Source: a virus
Virus record (IMG/VR): IMGVR_UViG_3300022837_000041
Span: 1-32,916 of that record
Strand: one strand, 5' to 3'
DNA length: 32,916 nucleotides
Position 1 is the stretch's first letter; every line of letters begins with the position of its first letter. The notes under the pieces are model-generated. The model was not told the origin of the DNA. It ran no database searches and worked only from the letters and a program-made list of their open reading frames with translations. A program made the position numbers and the translations under genes. Shown piece by piece: positions 224-32,916 of this stretch.

Positions 224-736
224 TCAAAGCGTCTGGTAAAGTTCCGCCATTGGTTTCAGCCGCGCTTTCAGGGTCAGGCGCTGAACCTCTGGCCACTCTT
301 GGATAGCCAGCCGTTCCTTCGCCTTCGAGATTTCTTCCCATGATTTACTCAGAGCAGCAAGCCAGCGTTGAGCGTCTTTGTGCGCGGTCTGGCTACCTGG
401 CTCCCGCTCTTGAGTTGGCAACAGGTCGAGAGCAAGGAATGCCTGCTTGGTGCTGGTGATAGAGTCAAGAGCGTCCTCAGGTATAGCTGCCAGCCGTATC
501 CAGTCAGCGGCCCGACTTGGTTTGATGTTGCCTAGAGCTTCGGTGTTGTCAGCGATCCAGACGACAAATTTGCCGGCGGGCAGGTTTTCTTTTGCGGTTT
601 TCAGGAATTGTCCGCACTCACGCGCCTTAAGAAATGCGGCTTTGGCGTGGTCATTTGCCTGTCCGGCTAGGGTCATTGCCTCAGTAAAGGCGGTGGAGAT
701 TTGTGAGCAGAGAGATAGTTGCAGTTGATTTTCCAT
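224..736 (-). CDS. DUF3102-like phage protein
   Basis: This 170-residue soluble protein is last in the leftward early operon, 5 bases after the 80-residue gene. Residues about 29-85 (an Ala/Lys-rich helix, then GQFLKTAKENLPAGKF, WIADN and SRAADWIRLA) resemble phage and plasmid proteins of the DUF3102 type, which pair a helical region with a helix-turn-helix-like segment. The rest is helical and charged. The start has a short GGG-containing leader overlapping the preceding stop codon. No catalytic motif is visible. A DNA-binding or regulatory role is inference only. Confidence 0.6.
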   Translation of the reverse strand: MENQLQLSLCSQISTAFTEAMTLAGQANDHAKAAFLKARECGQFLKTAKENLPAGKFVVWIADNTEALGNIKPSRAADWIRLAAIPEDALDSITSTKQAFLALDLLPTQEREPGSQTAHKDAQRWLAALSKSWEEISKAKERLAIQEWPEVQRLTLKARLKPMAELYQTL

Positions 737-741
737 GATAC

Positions 742-984
742 TTACCCTTTGATTTTCAATGGATTCTTGCCTTCAAGTTGCAAACTTTCCCCGATGAATG
801 GAATTGTCGGGCGCTCACCTCTGATGGCTGCATATTCCAATTCAAGCTTTAACGAGCCGAGAACCTTCCCGGCTGTGTTGCTGAGTTCCTTGACTTGATT
901 GTGACGGCGAGGATCGGCTTTCAGCATTGCGTATGCTTCAAGTAGGTCTTCGCGGAGTTCTTTTAGGTTCGATGGTGTTTTCAT
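742..984 (-). CDS. small conserved phage protein, unknown function
   Basis: This 80-residue protein is helical at its N terminus (LKELREDLLEAYAMLKAD). It ends with a pattern I recognise from many small phage proteins: a helix ending in KLELEYAAIRGERPTIPF. Function is unknown. The ATG overlaps the stop codon of the upstream repeat-protein gene by 4 bases (ATGA), so translation is probably coupled. The A/C-rich leader in front of it is also the coding end of that upstream gene. Members of this family usually sit among nucleic-acid genes, as here. Confidence 0.65.
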   Translation of the reverse strand: MKTPSNLKELREDLLEAYAMLKADPRRHNQVKELSNTAGKVLGSLKLELEYAAIRGERPTIPFIGESLQLEGKNPLKIKG

Positions 985-1595
985 TTTTGGTTTGTTGGTT
1001 TGGTTTTTCTAAGTTCTCTTAAAAGTATAATGTGAGCCCGCTTTAATTTAATCATATCCTCAGAAACGTATCCTTTATCAATCTTGGACTTGCCGACAAT
1101 CAAGAATGATACATAGCTGTACGATAGATTTGATCTTAATTCACGTTCCTTTTTGTAAATTCTATTCTTATTTTTACTGCGATACTCTATGCTTCTGGCT
1201 TTGATTTTATCCTTGTTTTTAAGCCGCCACTCTGCGGCCCGAGTTTTGATTTCATCTTTGTTTTTTCTCCTGTAGTTAAACTGACTCACTTTAACTTTAA
1301 CCTTGTTTTTGATGGCCCATTCCTTATTTGCGTAAAGTATCTCGCTTTTACGTTTAAGGTAATTTTTCTTTCTATTAGCGCGGAGCTTGTCTCTATTTTT
1401 GAGACGATACTCCTTAAACCAAGCCCTAAATTTTTCTTTGTTTTTCAAACGACTAGCCATTTCCTTCGCTAGAATTTCTTTTTTGTTTTTTATTCTATAT
1501 CTCTTCGCGTAGTCATTTACCGCATTCCTATTTTCTAGATCCCATTCTTTCTTGCGTGCTTTTTTACGAGCGGTAGCTTCATTATTCTCTCTCAT
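981..1595 (-). CDS. lysine-rich protein with nine 15-residue repeats
   Basis: This 204-residue, strongly basic protein consists of nine consecutive 15-residue units (residues about 19-153). The consensus is roughly R-x-K-N-K-[DE]-[KE]-[IL]-x6-[YW], followed by a unique C-terminal part of about 50 residues. That tail (LSYSYV, then EDMIKLKRAHIILLREL) resembles a C-terminal segment seen in several phage proteins and HNH-associated small proteins. No HNH cysteines or histidines are visible. The gene is clearly more AT-rich than its neighbours, suggesting separate acquisition. The start overlaps the upstream stop by 4 bases. DNA or RNA binding through the basic helices is inference. Confidence 0.65.
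   Translation of the reverse strand: MRENNEATARKKARKKEWDLENRNAVNDYAKRYRIKNKKEILAKEMASRLKNKEKFRAWFKEYRLKNRDKLRANRKKNYLKRKSEILYANKEWAIKNKVKVKVSQFNYRRKNKDEIKTRAAEWRLKNKDKIKARSIEYRSKNKNRIYKKERELRSNLSYSYVSFLIVGKSKIDKGYVSEDMIKLKRAHIILLRELRKTKPTNQK
1137..1541 (-). repeat. nine tandem 45-bp coding repeats
   Basis: These bases encode nine degenerate 15-residue repeats in the lysine-rich protein. The units keep register without insertions. The asparagine of the K-N-K core and the aromatic residue at the end of the unit are the most constant positions. The DNA copies have diverged, so the repeat is old or under protein-level selection. Confidence 0.75.
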
Positions 1596-2122
1596 CCTTC
1601 AGAAAGTTGAGATTTGCGATTGTCCGAATAAGCGTTGCGGGCCTCGACACTCTTTTGAGCACCGATGGCTGGTAGGTTGTTTTGGCGTTGGAAGGCCAGC
1701 TTGTGCGCTGAGAAGTTGGCTCTGGTGACGTTGTGGTGAGTGACCTTTCCGCATTCCTTGCAGCTATGTTTTGTGGCTAGGGACTTTGCCAGGTCTGAGT
1801 CTGATTGGCCTGCACATGATACGTGACTGAGTGCCGACGCCACTGAGAGTGCCCTGGTTGCCAGTTCTGAGTTGTTATTCGATTCCCGCAAGAATCCGAT
1901 TACTGACTGCATCCAGATAAAGGCGTCGCGAAAAATTGCGAGTTCGCGGCGGTGTTCCCACTCTTCGCGGGTCTCCTCCCGGTCCTCGTCCTGTGATTCA
2001 CGGCCATCCTGGCAGCGGTCGTCAATGCGGTCGTCGTCGTATTGGCTCATTGTGTTGGAGTGCCTGGCCGTGGAACGCTGCATTTGATTTCCATTTGTCC
2101 GAAATGCGCGATTGCGGTGCAT
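1592..2122 (-). CDS. putative HTH DNA-binding phage protein
   Basis: The frame gives 176 residues. Internal starts at 2083 and 2050 are possible and none has a clear ribosome site. The N terminus is very acidic and arginine-rich (about residues 25-60, DDDR and DEDREETREEWEHRRE). Near the C terminus, LAKSLATKHSCKECGKV, then TRANFSAHKLAFQRQ and NNLPAIGAQKS, resembles sigma-region-4/helix-turn-helix proteins of phages, in which 'TR..(F/V)S.H' is the recognition helix and a 'LPP...QKS..AR..Y' tail follows. Two cysteines (C-x2-C) interrupt it. It overlaps the next gene by 4 bases. Role unknown; transcriptional regulation is plausible. Confidence 0.5.
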   Translation of the reverse strand: MHRNRAFRTNGNQMQRSTARHSNTMSQYDDDRIDDRCQDGRESQDEDREETREEWEHRRELAIFRDAFIWMQSVIGFLRESNNNSELATRALSVASALSHVSCAGQSDSDLAKSLATKHSCKECGKVTHHNVTRANFSAHKLAFQRQNNLPAIGAQKSVEARNAYSDNRKSQLSEG

Positions 2123-2140
2123 TTGTAAAGCAATTTATTT

Positions 2141-2842
2141 TTATGGTCGCGCTCTCATCGACGGCCAGTTGCAGGGGACGATCATTCCGTGCTCCGATAA
2201 ACGTGAGATGATAGAGTCGTCGGTGTTTTGCTCGAACTCTACAGCAGACTCATTGCTGATGATGATAGTGTCTTTTTTGGCGGAATATCTCCGATCAATG
2301 ATGTCAGTCAGAATCCTCGGAGCGACATTAAGGGCGTTTGCGTCGTGTTTTTCATCAATTATCAGGAGTCCAATTGAGCATAGCGCGTCCCGCATTGCCA
2401 CCAGCGAATCGGTCCGAGTTGACCCGTGATCAGAATAAAGTGGTTTAAGAATCTCAACGATAGAAAGCATCTTGCGGTATATCGGGAGGCCAATCGGGGC
2501 ATTCTCGCGCCGTTGCGACTGATTCCAGTAGGCAACCCACTCCTCAGCAATCTGGATTGCAATTTGCGCTGAGATGGTAGTTTTCCCGGTACCACGGATT
2601 CCTACTAAGGCGATGATAGCCCCTTCGCCAAGAAGTTTGGATCTTACCACCCGGAACACCTTTTTCTGATTCGGCTCCAGATTCCAATCGGCCCGTTCTC
2701 GGAATCGTCCATCAAACCCGGCATCGGCAAGAATCGGGCGTATCTCATTGCGCCAGGTCCATTCGCGGATCTCGGCGTCGGAGCGCACCGGGATTGCGCT
2801 GAGCCTGCTTAAAATTTCAGGGAGTTGTAAATCTGTTGTCAT
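2141..2842 (-). CDS. DnaC-like helicase loader ATPase
   Basis: This 233-residue P-loop ATPase has Walker A GIRGTGKTT (residues 81-89) and Walker B GLLIIDE (about 158-164). A sensor-1-like IIISNE and an arginine-rich ISRLSEHG segment follow, as in DnaC/IstB-type AAA+ loaders. Such proteins load the replicative helicase at the origin. The gene follows the replication initiator with a 4-base ATGA overlap, matching the lambda O-P type order. There is no helicase gene in the window, so the host DnaB helicase is the probable partner. Confidence 0.8.
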   Translation of the reverse strand: MTTDLQLPEILSRLSAIPVRSDAEIREWTWRNEIRPILADAGFDGRFRERADWNLEPNQKKVFRVVRSKLLGEGAIIALVGIRGTGKTTISAQIAIQIAEEWVAYWNQSQRRENAPIGLPIYRKMLSIVEILKPLYSDHGSTRTDSLVAMRDALCSIGLLIIDEKHDANALNVAPRILTDIIDRRYSAKKDTIIISNESAVEFEQNTDDSIISRLSEHGMIVPCNWPSMRARP

Positions 2843-3717
2843 TGGTTTTCAGGTGTGTTGGGGTCAAATACAAGGTTCTTGTATTCACCGGGTTTGATTG
2901 CGTTGTCCGTGGCGGTTTTTTGGTTTCCTCGACGGTTGGTGAATGCGCCCTCGATGATTTCCTCAACCTTGCCGGGTCGCAAAAACCAATTGATAGTTGC
3001 CACCCATCCACGGTCATTCTTACCGGTGCAGAAATCGCTCTTGGAAATGAGTTGAATTGCCTGCAATGCGTGACATTTAAAAAATGGGTCGCGCATCCTT
3101 GCTGAAAATATCGCTTTGCGCTTTGCCCCCAGGTTCGAGACTTTGGGGAAACATCCGCACAAATTCCACGCAGCAATGATGGGAGGAACCGTAGGTTCCG
3201 GTAATTCTTTTTCTACATCTACATCTACATCTACATCTACATCTACATCTACATCTACATCTACATCTACATCTACATCTACTATGTGTGCATTTGATAC
3301 ATTTGTAGCTGCCTGTGTATTTGTGTCATTGACAGTCATTGACAAGGCATTTGCTTTGTCTTTTGCCCGATACTCCGCTTGTTTACGGCGGTTGTATTCT
3401 CTTCTCTCTTCGGCACTTAGGAGAGCGCAATACTTCCCATGATTGAGCAAAGCCCAGCCGCCATCTATCACTTTCACACGCTTTCCTTCGTGGTCTTTCG
3501 TCCGACTATAGGGGTCGGGCGTCTGAAAACTGGTCAAAGCTTCCTCGCATTGTGGAATCGAAACCCCGGTTCTAGCGGCGAGGCCGGGAATGGATGCGTG
3601 GACCTCACCATGACGGTCAACCATGGCCAGCATCGTAATCCAGGTAAGTTTAGTGTGGGCGGGTTCCTGCCAGATCGTGGAATCTAAAATTGAAGAAAAA
3701 AGTTTTGTAAAGTGCAT
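2839..3717 (-). CDS. replication initiator-like protein with Val-Asp repeat linker
   Basis: From ATG 3717 the protein has 292 residues. Its N terminus (KLFSSILDSTIW, then a winged-helix-like region including GLAARTGVSIPQCEEAL, about residues 33-53) looks like phage replication organiser proteins that bind the origin. A charged helix (EERREYNRRKQAEYRAKDKA) leads to a linker of eleven Val-Asp pairs, then a C-terminal domain probably contacting the helicase loader encoded next. An alternative start at 3759 overlaps the upstream stop by 4 bases and would add 14 residues. I prefer 3717 because the family usually begins at the KLFSSILD segment. The intervening bases hold palindromes. Confidence 0.75.
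   Translation of the reverse strand: MHFTKLFSSILDSTIWQEPAHTKLTWITMLAMVDRHGEVHASIPGLAARTGVSIPQCEEALTSFQTPDPYSRTKDHEGKRVKVIDGGWALLNHGKYCALLSAEERREYNRRKQAEYRAKDKANALSMTVNDTNTQAATNVSNAHIVDVDVDVDVDVDVDVDVDVDVDVEKELPEPTVPPIIAAWNLCGCFPKVSNLGAKRKAIFSARMRDPFFKCHALQAIQLISKSDFCTGKNDRGWVATINWFLRPGKVEEIIEGAFTNRRGNQKTATDNAIKPGEYKNLVFDPNTPENQ
3213..3278. repeat. hexanucleotide repeat, eleven CTACAT units
   Basis: Eleven perfect copies of CTACAT (plus strand) lie in frame in the replication initiator and encode alternating Val and Asp. Because the unit is six bases, gain or loss of units changes linker length without shifting frame. Perfection at the DNA level points to recent slippage. Confidence 0.95.
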
Positions 3718-3756
3718 TTTGTCAAAGTTTTGTGTATAAAAATATACACCGTGTAT
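3685..3756. promoter_or_regulatory. AT-rich iteron/palindrome cluster, candidate origin or operator
   Basis: This is a markedly AT-rich stretch. TTTTGT occurs three times (3703-3708, 3717-3722, 3728-3733), twice followed by AAAG or CAAAG. GTGTATA (3732-3738) pairs with TATACAC (3743-3749) around AAAA, and the ATACAC arm also pairs with GTGTAT (3751-3756). So one motif appears three times in alternating orientation. The cluster lies directly in front of the replication initiator. Origin iterons or an autoregulatory operator are the two readings. Confidence 0.5.
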
Positions 3757-4343
3757 CATTTGCAAGTCCGGCCGGATATGGCAAGCGTTTTCTTCCCGTC
3801 GGTGTCGGCGAGAACCTGGTTGATTTCCTCGCAGACCTGTCCGCGAGTCATGCGACAAAACGGGTCTCGGATCTTGGATAAAAGTCCTCTGGCTGCGGCG
3901 AGTTGCTGCGCTAGGGTCGCCGTCACGGTTAGGGTGCTGTCTTCCAATTCAGCCAGGTGGTCCAGCCCTTCCCGGTAAGAGCGAATGACCCGGACGATAG
4001 CCCCGTTCGGAGCCGCCGCCAGTTCCCGGTGGCATTTGTATTGCTGCGGAGTCGGATTCTTCCCCGGCAATTTCACTTCCCAGTGGACGCTCAGGCCGTG
4101 AATTTCAAAGGCGATGTCGGGCATCCCTGGCGCAATTTGGCTGCGTTTTCGGGTGGGCTGCATTCGGGGCCGGTGCCCGCGACGGTATGCCAGACTGTAA
4201 AGCTGCCCCTGCAATTCCATTTCGGACTTGGCAACGGCACCCGCTTCAGCCTCGTCGTATGTCACTCCAGATTTACCAAAGGATTTCCGGTCCTTGGTGG
4301 ACATCATGAGCTTTTGCTTGTCGGTCAAATCTCGGATATTCAT
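3756..4343 (-). CDS. VRR-NUC domain nuclease
   Basis: This 195-residue protein has the VRR-NUC pattern of the PD-(D/E)XK superfamily: SEMELQGQLY (residues 40-49), GMPDIAF (73-79, putative catalytic D76), and WEVKLPG (88-94, E89 and K91), then TPQQ and a C-terminal helix. Phage VRR-NUC proteins are structure-specific nucleases, probably acting on branched DNA made during replication and recombination. It sits between the SSB-like/recombinase genes and the initiator. Its start overlaps the stop of the 60-residue gene by 4 bases. C-terminal residues about 140-195 are not conserved in any way I recognise. Confidence 0.85.
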   Translation of the reverse strand: MNIRDLTDKQKLMMSTKDRKSFGKSGVTYDEAEAGAVAKSEMELQGQLYSLAYRRGHRPRMQPTRKRSQIAPGMPDIAFEIHGLSVHWEVKLPGKNPTPQQYKCHRELAAAPNGAIVRVIRSYREGLDHLAELEDSTLTVTATLAQQLAAARGLLSKIRDPFCRMTRGQVCEEINQVLADTDGKKTLAISGRTCK

Positions 4344-7622: not shown

Positions 7623-8792
7623 ATGAAAAAGCATAAATACAACATTCTCCCCGAAGCGCAACCCGACGAACTGGCCGAGCTTATTGCCGACATGACCGCG
7701 CACGGTTACGACGCCAAGCAGCCGATCACAGTCTATCAGGGCGATATTCTCGACGGATGGAATAGGCATTGCGCAGCGGTTGCGGCTGGCGTGTCGCCTA
7801 CTATTGTCACATTTACCGGCACAGATGCAGACGCCGTGTTTTTTGTTTTGCGAATGGGTAAGCGACGGAACCTGAACTCGGGACAGCGTGCAGCCGTGGC
7901 AACCGAAGCAGAAGACCTGCTGAAGGTGATTGCGGACGCCGTGGATAAGGAGCGCCGGGAGAAACAGGCAGCGGAACTAACCAAGACGCACGCGATGAAA
8001 GCCGAAGGTGTTTGTAACAATAAATTGTTACAAATAGATAAACGCGATCCCAACGCCGTTTCAACGCCAGCCAAAGCCGCCGAGATGTTCGGCACAAACC
8101 GCACCTACATAAACCAAGCCGCAAAGCTCAAGGCAACGTCACCGGAAACACTTGCGAAAGTGAAGGCGGGAACTGTAACAATGACCCAAGCCCTTCGCGA
8201 AATAAAAGAAGCCAAGCGTGAAGCTCGCCGCGAAGAGAACCGGGCAAAGGTCGCAATGGTTGAATCCCCTGCCGACGTTGCGGAATCGGGTGCGAAGTTT
8301 TCCACCATCGTCATTGACCCGCCGTGGGATTGGGGCGACGAAGGCGACAACGACCAACTCGGACGAGCAAAGGCTGATTACGCCACCATGAGTTTTTCGC
8401 AACTTATGGACCTTCCCGTTGAACCGTTGGCCGATGACGATTGCCACCTGTATCTCTGGATCACGAACCGTAGCCTGCCCAAAGGATTTTCACTCATAGA
8501 AAAATGGGGATTCCGCTACGTCACTGCGCTAACCTGGGTCAAGCCACATTTCGGAATGGGCAACTACTTCCGGGGCCAAACCGAGCACGTCCTTTTCGGT
8601 GTGCGGGGAAGCCAGCCGTTAAAAAGAAAGGACGTGGGGACCGTGTTTAGCGCGTCGCGTGGACCCAACGGACACAGTTCAAAGCCCGTCGAGTTTTACG
8701 ACCTTGTGGAAAGTTGCTCCCCTGGCCCGTACCTCGAGATGTTCAGCCGATCAGATCGGCAGGACTGGCAAACGTGGGGGGAGGGAGCATGA
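7623..8792 (+). CDS. ParB-like/MT-A70 DNA adenine methyltransferase
   Basis: This is a 389-residue two-part protein. Residues about 8-100 form a ParB/sulfiredoxin-like N-terminal domain (PITVYQGDILDGWNRHCAA, then VLRMGKRRNLNSGQRA). A helical, HTH-like middle follows (AAEMFGTNRTYINQAAKL, about residues 155-172). From about residue 222 comes an MT-A70 methyltransferase domain with DPPW at 232-235, the family catalytic motif. HLYLWITN, ALTWVKPHFGMGNYFRGQTEHVLFGVRG and HSSKP continue the fold. It should make N6-methyladenine in DNA, perhaps guided by the ParB-like part. It heads the rightward operon behind an operator-bearing promoter and is coupled by a 4-base overlap to a nuclease-like gene. 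Confidence 0.9.
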   Translation: MKKHKYNILPEAQPDELAELIADMTAHGYDAKQPITVYQGDILDGWNRHCAAVAAGVSPTIVTFTGTDADAVFFVLRMGKRRNLNSGQRAAVATEAEDLLKVIADAVDKERREKQAAELTKTHAMKAEGVCNNKLLQIDKRDPNAVSTPAKAAEMFGTNRTYINQAAKLKATSPETLAKVKAGTVTMTQALREIKEAKREARREENRAKVAMVESPADVAESGAKFSTIVIDPPWDWGDEGDNDQLGRAKADYATMSFSQLMDLPVEPLADDDCHLYLWITNRSLPKGFSLIEKWGFRYVTALTWVKPHFGMGNYFRGQTEHVLFGVRGSQPLKRKDVGTVFSASRGPNGHSSKPVEFYDLVESCSPGPYLEMFSRSDRQDWQTWGEGA

Positions 8793-31333: not shown

Positions 31334-32212
31334 TCATAGATCGGAAGGCGGATGATCGTTTAGTCTCACTAACTTCATTCCGTAGTTGTTTATTCCCTTC
31401 GGTATGACAATACCAGGCTTTCTGATAAGCCTGTTTTTTTTAAACGGCTTATAATTCACATGATGCTGCCAACGGCCCCAGCGTCGCCTTATTGTGCATA
31501 CGTCGGGATGTTGCCGCTGCAAGGATTTTGCCATTTCAAGACGCCCATCAAACCCTGCGTCCTGCTTGTAAAGTAGATCGGTGTTCCCGCCTTTCATCTT
31601 TAGTGTTGCCTGCTTGTTACACAAAAAACCGTTAAACAAAATGGTGCAATGTCCATCTTTCAGAATTCTCAAACTCAGGTCGGTATCTTCATTGTATCTT
31701 CCCCGCCAACGATAGCTGATTTTATTTGAAAGAAGTATGCATGAATAAATTCTTGCATTCAGGCAAAATGGAGTCTTGACCGTGCCTTTAGCCGTTGATG
31801 ATTCGACCACCGCGAATGATCCATATTGAAACCCCGCCATATGAACATTCATGTACCTCTCAACAAATCCCTCGGCTATCGCAAAAACAGACCCGTCAGA
31901 AACTTTAATCTTGTCTCCTTTATACAGCCGGACAAACCCTCTCAGGTTGTCATCCATAATCCAATGTCGACCGTGGCCTTCGCTTATCGAATGTTCCCAA
32001 ACCCAATTTCTCGCAGGTATGCCGCCCTGACCTAAATTCGAGAAAGGTAAAACAAGAATCTTTTGTGGATCAATCACCGATGCATATTGCGCAAATTCAT
32101 GCGGCTCAATTACAATTCGATAATCAACTCCAATTGATTCTAGCGCGATGCTTGTATAGCGAGTTTTCCACCGTCCCTTGCTGATTATATAAATCGGGAA
32201 TTTAGGATTCAT
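31334..32212 (-). CDS. TET-associated-type DNA glycosyltransferase (TAGT)
   Basis: ATG 32212 gives 292 residues; it overlaps the ParB-like gene stop by 4 bases, while the longer frame from 32272 would bury 60 bases in that gene. The protein matches the TAGT family I recognise: FPIYIISKGRW (residues 5-15), LVLPFSNLGQGGIPARNWVW (53-72), WIMDDNLRGF (84-93, the DDN metal/sugar motif at 87-89), LNARIYSC (151-158), and GRYNEDTDLSLR (171-182). It should glycosylate a hydroxymethylated or otherwise modified base in phage DNA. No TET/JBP enzyme or base-synthesis gene is in the window. Confidence 0.8.
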   Translation of the reverse strand: MNPKFPIYIISKGRWKTRYTSIALESIGVDYRIVIEPHEFAQYASVIDPQKILVLPFSNLGQGGIPARNWVWEHSISEGHGRHWIMDDNLRGFVRLYKGDKIKVSDGSVFAIAEGFVERYMNVHMAGFQYGSFAVVESSTAKGTVKTPFCLNARIYSCILLSNKISYRWRGRYNEDTDLSLRILKDGHCTILFNGFLCNKQATLKMKGGNTDLLYKQDAGFDGRLEMAKSLQRQHPDVCTIRRRWGRWQHHVNYKPFKKNRLIRKPGIVIPKGINNYGMKLVRLNDHPPSDL

Positions 32213-32838
32213 TCTGGTTGCCCAATAAATTGAGAGTCTTTTTCGTTGCCCTTTGGTCGCGATGGATACCAAATAAATTTAGCGGAGTCCGGGAGCAATT
32301 GACCGATACATTTTCCAAATGCAATCACCGCGGCCTCGCTTGGAAAATGTACAATTATTGTTCGGACTCCTTTTGGCTGGTTTTTATATTCGGGCATATC
32401 TTCCCATTCCTGTTCTGGATTTTCTACAAAATCGCCCGGCGTGATGATGTTTTCCAGTTCTTCGTCCGTCCATCCGCTGAACGTCAAGCTCGTTAAGTCG
32501 ATAGACTTTAATTCAGTGATTTCGATTTTAAGCATCTCGTCATCCCACCCCCCGCCAATTTCCGAAAGCCGATTGTCAGCCAGGATATACGCCCGCCGCT
32601 GCGTGTCGGTAAGGTGGCCGAGCCTGATGCACGGCACGTCCGCCAGCCCGAGAGACTGCGCGGCCAGCACCCGCCCATGACCCGCGATGATGCCGTTGTC
32701 TTTGTCAACGAGCACCGGGTTGCAAAAACCGAACTCCCTGATGCTCCCGGCAATCTTCGCCACTTGGCCAGCGTCGTGTTTCTTTGCATTTCTGGCATAC
32801 GGCACCAGCTTTTCAGTTTTCAGCGTTTCGATTTTCAT
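32209..32838 (-). CDS. ParB N-terminal-domain protein
   Basis: This 209-residue protein has a ParB/Srx-type N-terminal domain: PYARNAKKHDAGQVAKIAGS, IREFGFCNPVLVDKDN, GIIAGHGRVLAAQSLGL (residues about 47-65, the nucleotide-binding loop type), and RRAYILADNRLSEIGGGWDDE. The C-terminal domain (GVRTIIVHFPSEAAVIAFGK, then IGQLLPDSAKFIWYP) is a small alpha/beta module that often accompanies this family in phages. GGAAAATAATTT precedes the ATG, a possible ribosome site. It is the first late gene from the cos-like end and is coupled to the glycosyltransferase. Probable role: DNA binding or modification targeting (inference). Confidence 0.8.
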   Translation of the reverse strand: MKIETLKTEKLVPYARNAKKHDAGQVAKIAGSIREFGFCNPVLVDKDNGIIAGHGRVLAAQSLGLADVPCIRLGHLTDTQRRAYILADNRLSEIGGGWDDEMLKIEITELKSIDLTSLTFSGWTDEELENIITPGDFVENPEQEWEDMPEYKNQPKGVRTIIVHFPSEAAVIAFGKCIGQLLPDSAKFIWYPSRPKGNEKDSQFIGQPE

Positions 32839-32902: not shown

Positions 32903-32916
32903 GTGCCGAGTATACC
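32903..32916. repeat. terminal direct repeat, right copy
   Basis: GTGCCGAGTATACC, identical to bases 1-14. The preceding bases are GG and, further left, an AT-rich gap of about 65 bases leading to the ParB-like gene. On a circle, one copy would remain. Confidence 0.8.

Follow-up and report, generated by a model that had tools for sequence, protein, structure and literature searches.

By sequence, the array of nine 15-residue units in the 204-aa protein studied here belongs to a class of arrays known from phage HNH-linked proteins. Our computational analysis found kinship of the array with these proteins, no HNH motif in the protein itself and a gene body that differs between related phages. 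We consider the chances about even that the protein is a nuclease-free member of a broad phage class with arrays of 15-residue helical units and would serve as a nucleic-acid-binding accessory. Although the array is widespread in phage proteins that resemble nucleases, the protein encoded in the window (the whole 32,916-bp stretch of viral DNA analysed) matched nothing in Pfam or NCBIfam, and the PHROG that fits it is of unknown function. As a natural nuclease-free version of 25 kDa, it would be a clean object for finding what the array does. The coordinates of the gene and of the features around it are presented in Table 1.

Table 1. Features of the array gene and its surroundings in the window
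Feature	Position	Strand	Basis and remarks
170-aa gene	224..736	-	homologous gene (E 4e-16) in the L012 cassette; DUF3102 match below threshold (E 0.066)
80-aa partner gene	742..984	-	overlaps the array-gene stop; homologues in L005, L012, L057 and L060
Array gene, 204 aa	981..1595	-	ORF; start and stop each overlap a neighbouring gene as ATGA
C-terminal tail (residues 149-204)	984..1151	-	low-confidence stretch, then predicted helix 179-198; common to the L005 and L012 alleles
Segment without blastn match (E 1e-5) in related phage L005	1059..1591	-	lies between flanks 95-96% identical
Nine 15-residue units (residues 14-148)	1152..1556	-	autocorrelation against shuffles; block HMM; predicted helix
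176-aa upstream gene	1592..2122	-	overlaps the array-gene start; weak profile matches; homologue in L012, E 3e-12

Periodicity and composition of the array

The extent of the gene had been given correctly by an earlier sequence-only reading, which had left out the strand. The nine units that it proposed are real: their spacing is exactly 15 residues, the motif triplets begin at residues 21, 36 and so on to 141, and the BLOSUM autocorrelation of the protein reaches 0.68 at lag 15, 0.73 at lag 30 and 0.49 at lag 45, against a maximum of 0.46 in 5000 shuffles. The proposed K-N-K-[DE] core was recovered in part, with exact KNK in six of the nine units and ENR, KNR or KRK in the others, and with an acidic next residue in four of the nine only. 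The aromatic residue, which had been placed at the close of the unit, occurs as Tyr or Trp at unit position 5 in seven of the nine. The protein is strongly basic, as previously noted (68 Lys and Arg, 24 Asp and Glu, pI 10.6), and the gene is indeed AT-rich, its GC content being 34.8% compared to 52.3% for the window, with none of 647 sampled 615-bp windows as low.

The repeat exists mostly at the protein level. Tandem Repeats Finder detected no 45-bp array at the array gene, and what recurs in the DNA, 45, 90, 135 or 225 nt apart, is limited to short stretches of 19-26 nt; for these reasons a DNA tandem-repeat artefact was rejected.

Array relatives among phage nuclease-like proteins

The array had initially been taken as undescribed. 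It is instead present in many phage HNH and endonuclease VII-type proteins, a link of the kind that the earlier reading had itself named as refuting its view, though no named domain was found to cover the array. An HMM built from the window's own 3-unit blocks matched the Bacillus phage gp156 'endonuclease' (E 8.5e-8), a Vibrio phage protein with an HNH-like C-terminus (E 4.2e-6) and the L012 allele described below (E 5.1e-4; Z=10000 throughout), the best of 120 shuffles giving 8.2, and at the level of 3-unit blocks the window protein thus contains the same-unit 15-residue array as the HNH and endonuclease VII proteins. A profile of a single unit, the search that had been suggested, failed to set relatives apart from shuffles: L012 scored 0.082, Vibrio 0.096 and Bacillus 4.2, against 0.3 for the best shuffle. 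Bias corrections were large. The Chlorobiaceae array protein P0001 was absent among the listed matches of either HMM.

A repeat-only scan of viral contigs confirmed at least 37 loci among 599 candidates, and a single scan of bacterial genomes confirmed one locus out of 110, an HNH protein in an Opitutales MAG (L056); together they yielded at least 28 distinct array proteins. For comparison, 33 proteins were assembled, comprising the window protein, its L005 and L012 alleles, three proteins from phage records and 27 of the 28 scan proteins (the truncated L036 was left out). The block HMM matched 41 of the 66 sources searched, including the window and all 37 viral array loci, which is a matter of consistency and no independent test, since these loci had been fetched for such repeats. 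At E 0.01 it missed the proteins of L005, L012, L015, Tenacibaculum phage JQ (L057) and contig L060.

When JQ and L060 were added to the 33 proteins, the best period was 15 or 30 in 33 of the 35. The periodicity beat all 200 shuffles in 25 proteins, reached only the 95% level in six (L005 among them) and was not significant in L012, L031, JQ and L060. The most frequent residues over 137 units give the consensus Y-x-K-E-Y-[RY]-L-[KN]-N-K-E-K-I-x-x; the selection of these units required an aromatic residue or Cys at position 5 and Asn followed by K/R/P and then by one of D/E/K/N/S/A, so that consensus positions 5 and 9-11, as well as part of the acidic moment reported below, are imposed.

By a loose regular expression, an HNH-like motif was found in 24 of the 33 proteins and was missing from nine, namely those of the window, L005, L012, L015, L017, L022, L023 and the nearly identical L034 and L035. 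Pfam HNH, HNH_5 and Endonuclease_7 were each matched by two members at E 0.01. Matches to PHROGs comprised phrog_17714 in 27 of the 33 and phrog_1035 (endonuclease VII) in 22, and may rest partly on the array. Among the proteins compared, most 15-residue units are joined to a domain of HNH or endonuclease VII type, and some to a zinc knuckle.

The window protein has no HNH (beta-beta-alpha metal) motif and one His in 204 aa, and with no Cys it has no CxxC...CxxC zinc knuckle; an active HNH nuclease was rejected on account of the missing motif. No match to the protein was obtained in Pfam, NCBIfam or PDB, and the array profile found nothing convincing in PDB (best E 0.36). Residues 12-82 match phrog_17714, a family of unknown function (E 1.1e-6), the match being limited to profile positions 16-86 of 129 and lying within the array.

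The proteins of Vibrio phage 207E29.1 (QZI90313.1) and of the Opitutales genome (L056:2992-3678) resemble the window protein in the 15-residue period, the aromatic residue at position 5, Asn at 9 and Lys at 10. The array-bearing HNH and endonuclease VII-type proteins, however, have an HNH-like C-terminus and in some cases a zinc knuckle, whereas the window protein has neither. Gp156 of Bacillus phage 000TH009 (QQO40850.1), whose array is the part matched by the block HMM, likewise has no HNH motif, but it carries an N-terminal CxxC...CxxC knuckle, and its array reaches almost to the end of the protein, without the tail of the window protein. The Chlorobiaceae phage protein QOE32027.1 (L015, 2213-2827), which has no HNH motif, consists almost entirely of a very regular 15-residue E-N-P-E-K array.

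A search for phrog_17714 in 286 genomes of the L056 class gave one match, L073, which by eye is a 15-residue array without HNH; the genome holding L056 gave no match in that search, so its sensitivity is low. The whole array protein had no match by tblastn in 50,697 phage records at E 1e-5, and none of the 19 candidates from a single-protein scan of viral contigs was confirmed. Among the titles and abstract openings listed in literature searches, for which coverage of subscription papers was thin, none described this array.

Predicted structure of the array

Structure prediction, which had been proposed as a check for a continuous helix, gave a long helix over the array. In the AlphaFold2 model (24 rows), the array blocks were all helix with a mean pLDDT of 95-98, and the pTM was 0.48. 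AlphaFold2 tends toward over-confident helices for charged repeats, and we therefore regard a continuous helix as likely, as a prediction. The model has single-residue breaks at N67, N97, N112, N127 and N142. Each of these is the Asn of its unit; five of the nine units have such a break and four do not. In the tail, pLDDT drops below 50 at residues 169-176. The model of the Opitutales HNH protein contains a similar helix with breaks at 20, 35, 46, 87 and 102, each of them an Asn, and its array is followed by a low-confidence region and then by strand-strand-helix.

The suggestion that basic faces may line up along DNA was not borne out. No significant basic moment at 3.75 residues per turn was detected in the nine units (p=0.73) or in the 137 units from 26 relatives (p=0.58), and a basic face along one side was rejected, as the basic residues have no preferred side. 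Acidic residues prefer one side in the 137 pattern-picked units (p=0.001), with p=0.087 for the window's nine. Single alpha-helix (charged ER/K) domains have a balanced E/K salt-bridge pattern; the window protein, judged by composition only, is in contrast unbalanced (K+R 68, D+E 24). VASP-type 15-residue right-handed coiled coils are characterized by a hydrophobic stripe at 15/4 residues per turn, which the window array does not have (hydrophobic moment p=0.75 for nine units and 0.21 for 137 units). A Foldseek search with the model gave no match in PDB and eight matches in BFVD, all with E of at least 2.9.

In the reading that we prefer, such a helical rod would bind nucleic acid, DNA or RNA, with its phosphate contacts distributed around the whole rod; binding of DNA in particular is putative. 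Basic helical rods bind RNA no less readily than DNA, which would also suit a protein that acts in RNA binding or as an RNA chaperone and not on DNA; many of the relatives, however, resemble DNA-cutting enzymes, and we consider a role on RNA instead of DNA very improbable.

Alleles in related phages

The related phage L005 (IMGVR_UViG_3300028228_000421) is 96.3% identical to the window over positions 1-1058 and 95.0% identical over 1592-3756. Its allele encodes a 214-aa protein with a weaker 15-residue period that shares the last residues (40% identity over 83 aa). L012 contains a third allele, 32% identical over 94 aa, in which approximately three units can be made out by eye; its frame (L012 3697-4212) continues approximately 210 nt past the partner-gene start rather than ending there. 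In L007, which is 92% identical over window positions 2147-3798, the place of the array gene is taken by an Sf6-type small terminase gene, and the L007 record, a fragment, contains no match to the array protein. At L007 6209-7941, the DnaC-like gene is followed by two terminase genes, the small one of Sf6 type (PF20901, E 9e-32) and a large one of the Terminase_6N family (PF03237, E 4e-9), an exchange of modules at the boundary that the array cassette occupies in the window. Most of the array-gene body is different DNA in L005, and comparison of the alleles points to an array that is exchangeable, with tail and partner retained.

Alternatively, the gene could be what is left of an HNH homing endonuclease with such an array, now decaying or domesticated, after loss of the nuclease domain; the array itself would then be functionless, and the gene would be subject to turnover by recombination. 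The HNH-like motif in most of the compared relatives, together with their PHROG matches, the AT-rich, foreign-looking DNA, the divergent gene body and the absence of the gene from its place in L007 and from the rest of that fragment are all consistent with a remnant. However, in all three alleles the reading frame stays open across the tail that they share and overlaps with the partner gene, the other alleles are likewise nuclease-free and tail-bearing rather than empty sites, and six more array proteins have no HNH motif (L015, L017, L022, L023, L034 and L035); we consider the remnant explanation unlikely.

A different gene body between flanks 95-96% identical would also be expected of a fast-changing host-takeover or anti-defence protein, in which a charged rod sequesters or mimics a host nucleic-acid-binding factor and alleles are swapped. 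Some array proteins do match PHROGs named Srd anti-sigma, sigma70 decoy and Lar-like restriction alleviation, but these matches are few (5, 3 and 3 of the 33 proteins, respectively) and may reflect composition or a zinc knuckle. Moreover, DNA mimics are acidic proteins, unlike the basic array protein, and the array gene stands beside helicase-loader genes. We consider a host-takeover or anti-defence role distinctly unlikely.

Similarity of the C-terminal tail

A short C-terminal part had been described as recalling known phage proteins. This holds only in part: the tail matches that of one HNH_3 protein (L061), and none of the seven HNH_3 tails tested from phrog_2044 records matched. L061 emerged from an alignment of the JQ and L060 tails as one of 89 candidates; its protein belongs to PF13392 HNH_3 (E 5.3e-14), has by eye an HTH-like N-terminus and ends in such a tail. 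The tail HMM of the three alleles matched it with E 4.3e-4, and none of 1000 shuffles was as good. The same HMM gave E 1.7 for the JQ tail (13 of 1000 shuffles as good), and for L060 397 of 1000 shuffles were as good. In the reverse direction, with a profile of the JQ, L060 and L061 tails, shuffles as good numbered 73 per 1000 for the window tail, which is not significant, 10 for L005 and 0 for L012, the best of the three. The hhalign probability for the two tail profiles was 33, compared with 0.4 before L061 was added. Further tail searches gave no match in two cases, L012 only again in one and five records with a best E of 0.8 in another, and the L061 tail recovered four Klebsiella RIIA-like phage records (best E 0.1). 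These comparisons support only in part a homology of the tail outside the three alleles.

The partner gene and its two-gene unit

In the window, L005, L012, JQ and L060, the gene directly upstream overlaps the partner gene. The L012 partner is 77% identical to that of the window, and the JQ homologue (L057 3001-3213; record 32262-32474) is an ORF without annotation of its own. Directly downstream of the HNH_3 gene of L061 lies a small gene that the four-row partner HMM matched with E 0.0038 (0 of 1000 shuffles as good); a two-row profile gave no significant match (E 1.7; 10 of 1000 shuffles did as well).

The two-gene units of Tenacibaculum phage JQ (QIG62331.1) and of the IMG/VR contigs L060 and L061 resemble that of the window in having a partner homologue directly downstream and overlapping. 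They differ in the upstream protein, which has zinc knuckles in JQ and L060, an HNH_3 domain in L061 and the array in the window. Besides the zinc knuckle, the JQ and L060 upstream genes encode a basic region and a similarly patterned tail, the similarity of which to the tails of the window alleles is not significant. We read the array gene as occupying a position next to the partner in which other phages have zinc-knuckle or HNH_3 proteins, the window protein retaining a tail and the partner and carrying the array where a nuclease would be.

The small gene of L061 belongs to phrog_2044 (E 3e-27), a family annotated 'RNA polymerase beta subunit' and present in 185 phage records. The window partner itself has no phrog_2044 match and is tied to the family only via L061 and a weak match of JQ (E 0.021). 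In all eight phrog_2044 records fetched, a Pfam HNH_3 gene directly follows the phrog_2044 gene, so that the HNH gene comes after the partner there, whereas the array gene of the window comes before it. The upstream genes scanned in such records (L062, L063, L066, L067 and L068) belong by their matches to different families, and three of these genes resemble regulators or sigma factors.

The DNA retrieved for the 37 viral array loci and for L056 contained no partner match, which indicates that array and partner are not generally linked. Searches without a positive control in genomes of the L056 phylum gave no matches with the partner HMM (387 genomes) or with phrog_17069 (194 genomes). Weak phrog_17069 matches were observed for the partners of the window (742-984), L012 (4001-4240) and L057 (3001-3213), with E of 0.036, 0.0089 and 0.0058, respectively; all three fall in the same C-terminal third of the family (approximately positions 86-137 of 145), a hint of a fused form elsewhere.

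With the array as a nuclease-free accessory, the tail would dock the co-translated partner of approximately 80 aa or a replication or packaging protein, and rod binding combined with tail docking would make the pair an accessory nucleic-acid-binding module rather than an enzyme, presumably to the benefit of the phage. A broader version is doubtful in our view, in which the unit is an unnamed helical repeat with Asn at a recurring break that forms a general nucleic-acid-wrapping rod; it would be fused to many nucleases and occur as well in a nuclease-free, exchangeable cassette with a fixed docking tail and partner, the length and sequence of the array tuning where or how tightly the partner complex sits.

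Genomic neighbourhood and other features of the record

At its 5' end the array gene overlaps the stop of the 176-aa gene, and at its 3' end it overlaps the partner-gene start. The profile matches of the 176-aa gene are weak, the best being to phrog_31011 (E 0.019), with phrog_1368 (regulator) at E 0.029. In L012, homologues of the 176-aa, array (E 2e-10), partner and 170-aa genes lie side by side in a different order, and on homology the four genes are a conserved cassette. Upstream of the array gene, the window has DnaC-like and DnaD-like helicase-loader genes, and elsewhere it encodes RecT, exonuclease, terminase, portal, protease and tape-measure proteins. An exact 14-bp direct repeat at the two ends (1-14 and 32903-32916), together with L005 spanning the joint, makes it probable that the record is complete and was assembled as a circle.

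Within the replication-initiator gene, the hexanucleotide TCTACA is perfectly repeated (3212-3282, 11.8 copies) and encodes an Asp-Val run. The repeat is shorter in L005 and L007, the contigs L008 and L009 (100% identical over 5.6 kb) end in it, and in L010, a more distant relative, the corresponding protein contains a run of Ala-Asp. Two further proteins possibly serve in DNA modification, namely a DNA methyltransferase that also has a ParB-like match (7623-8792) and a glucosyltransferase-like protein (phrog_842; 31334-32272).
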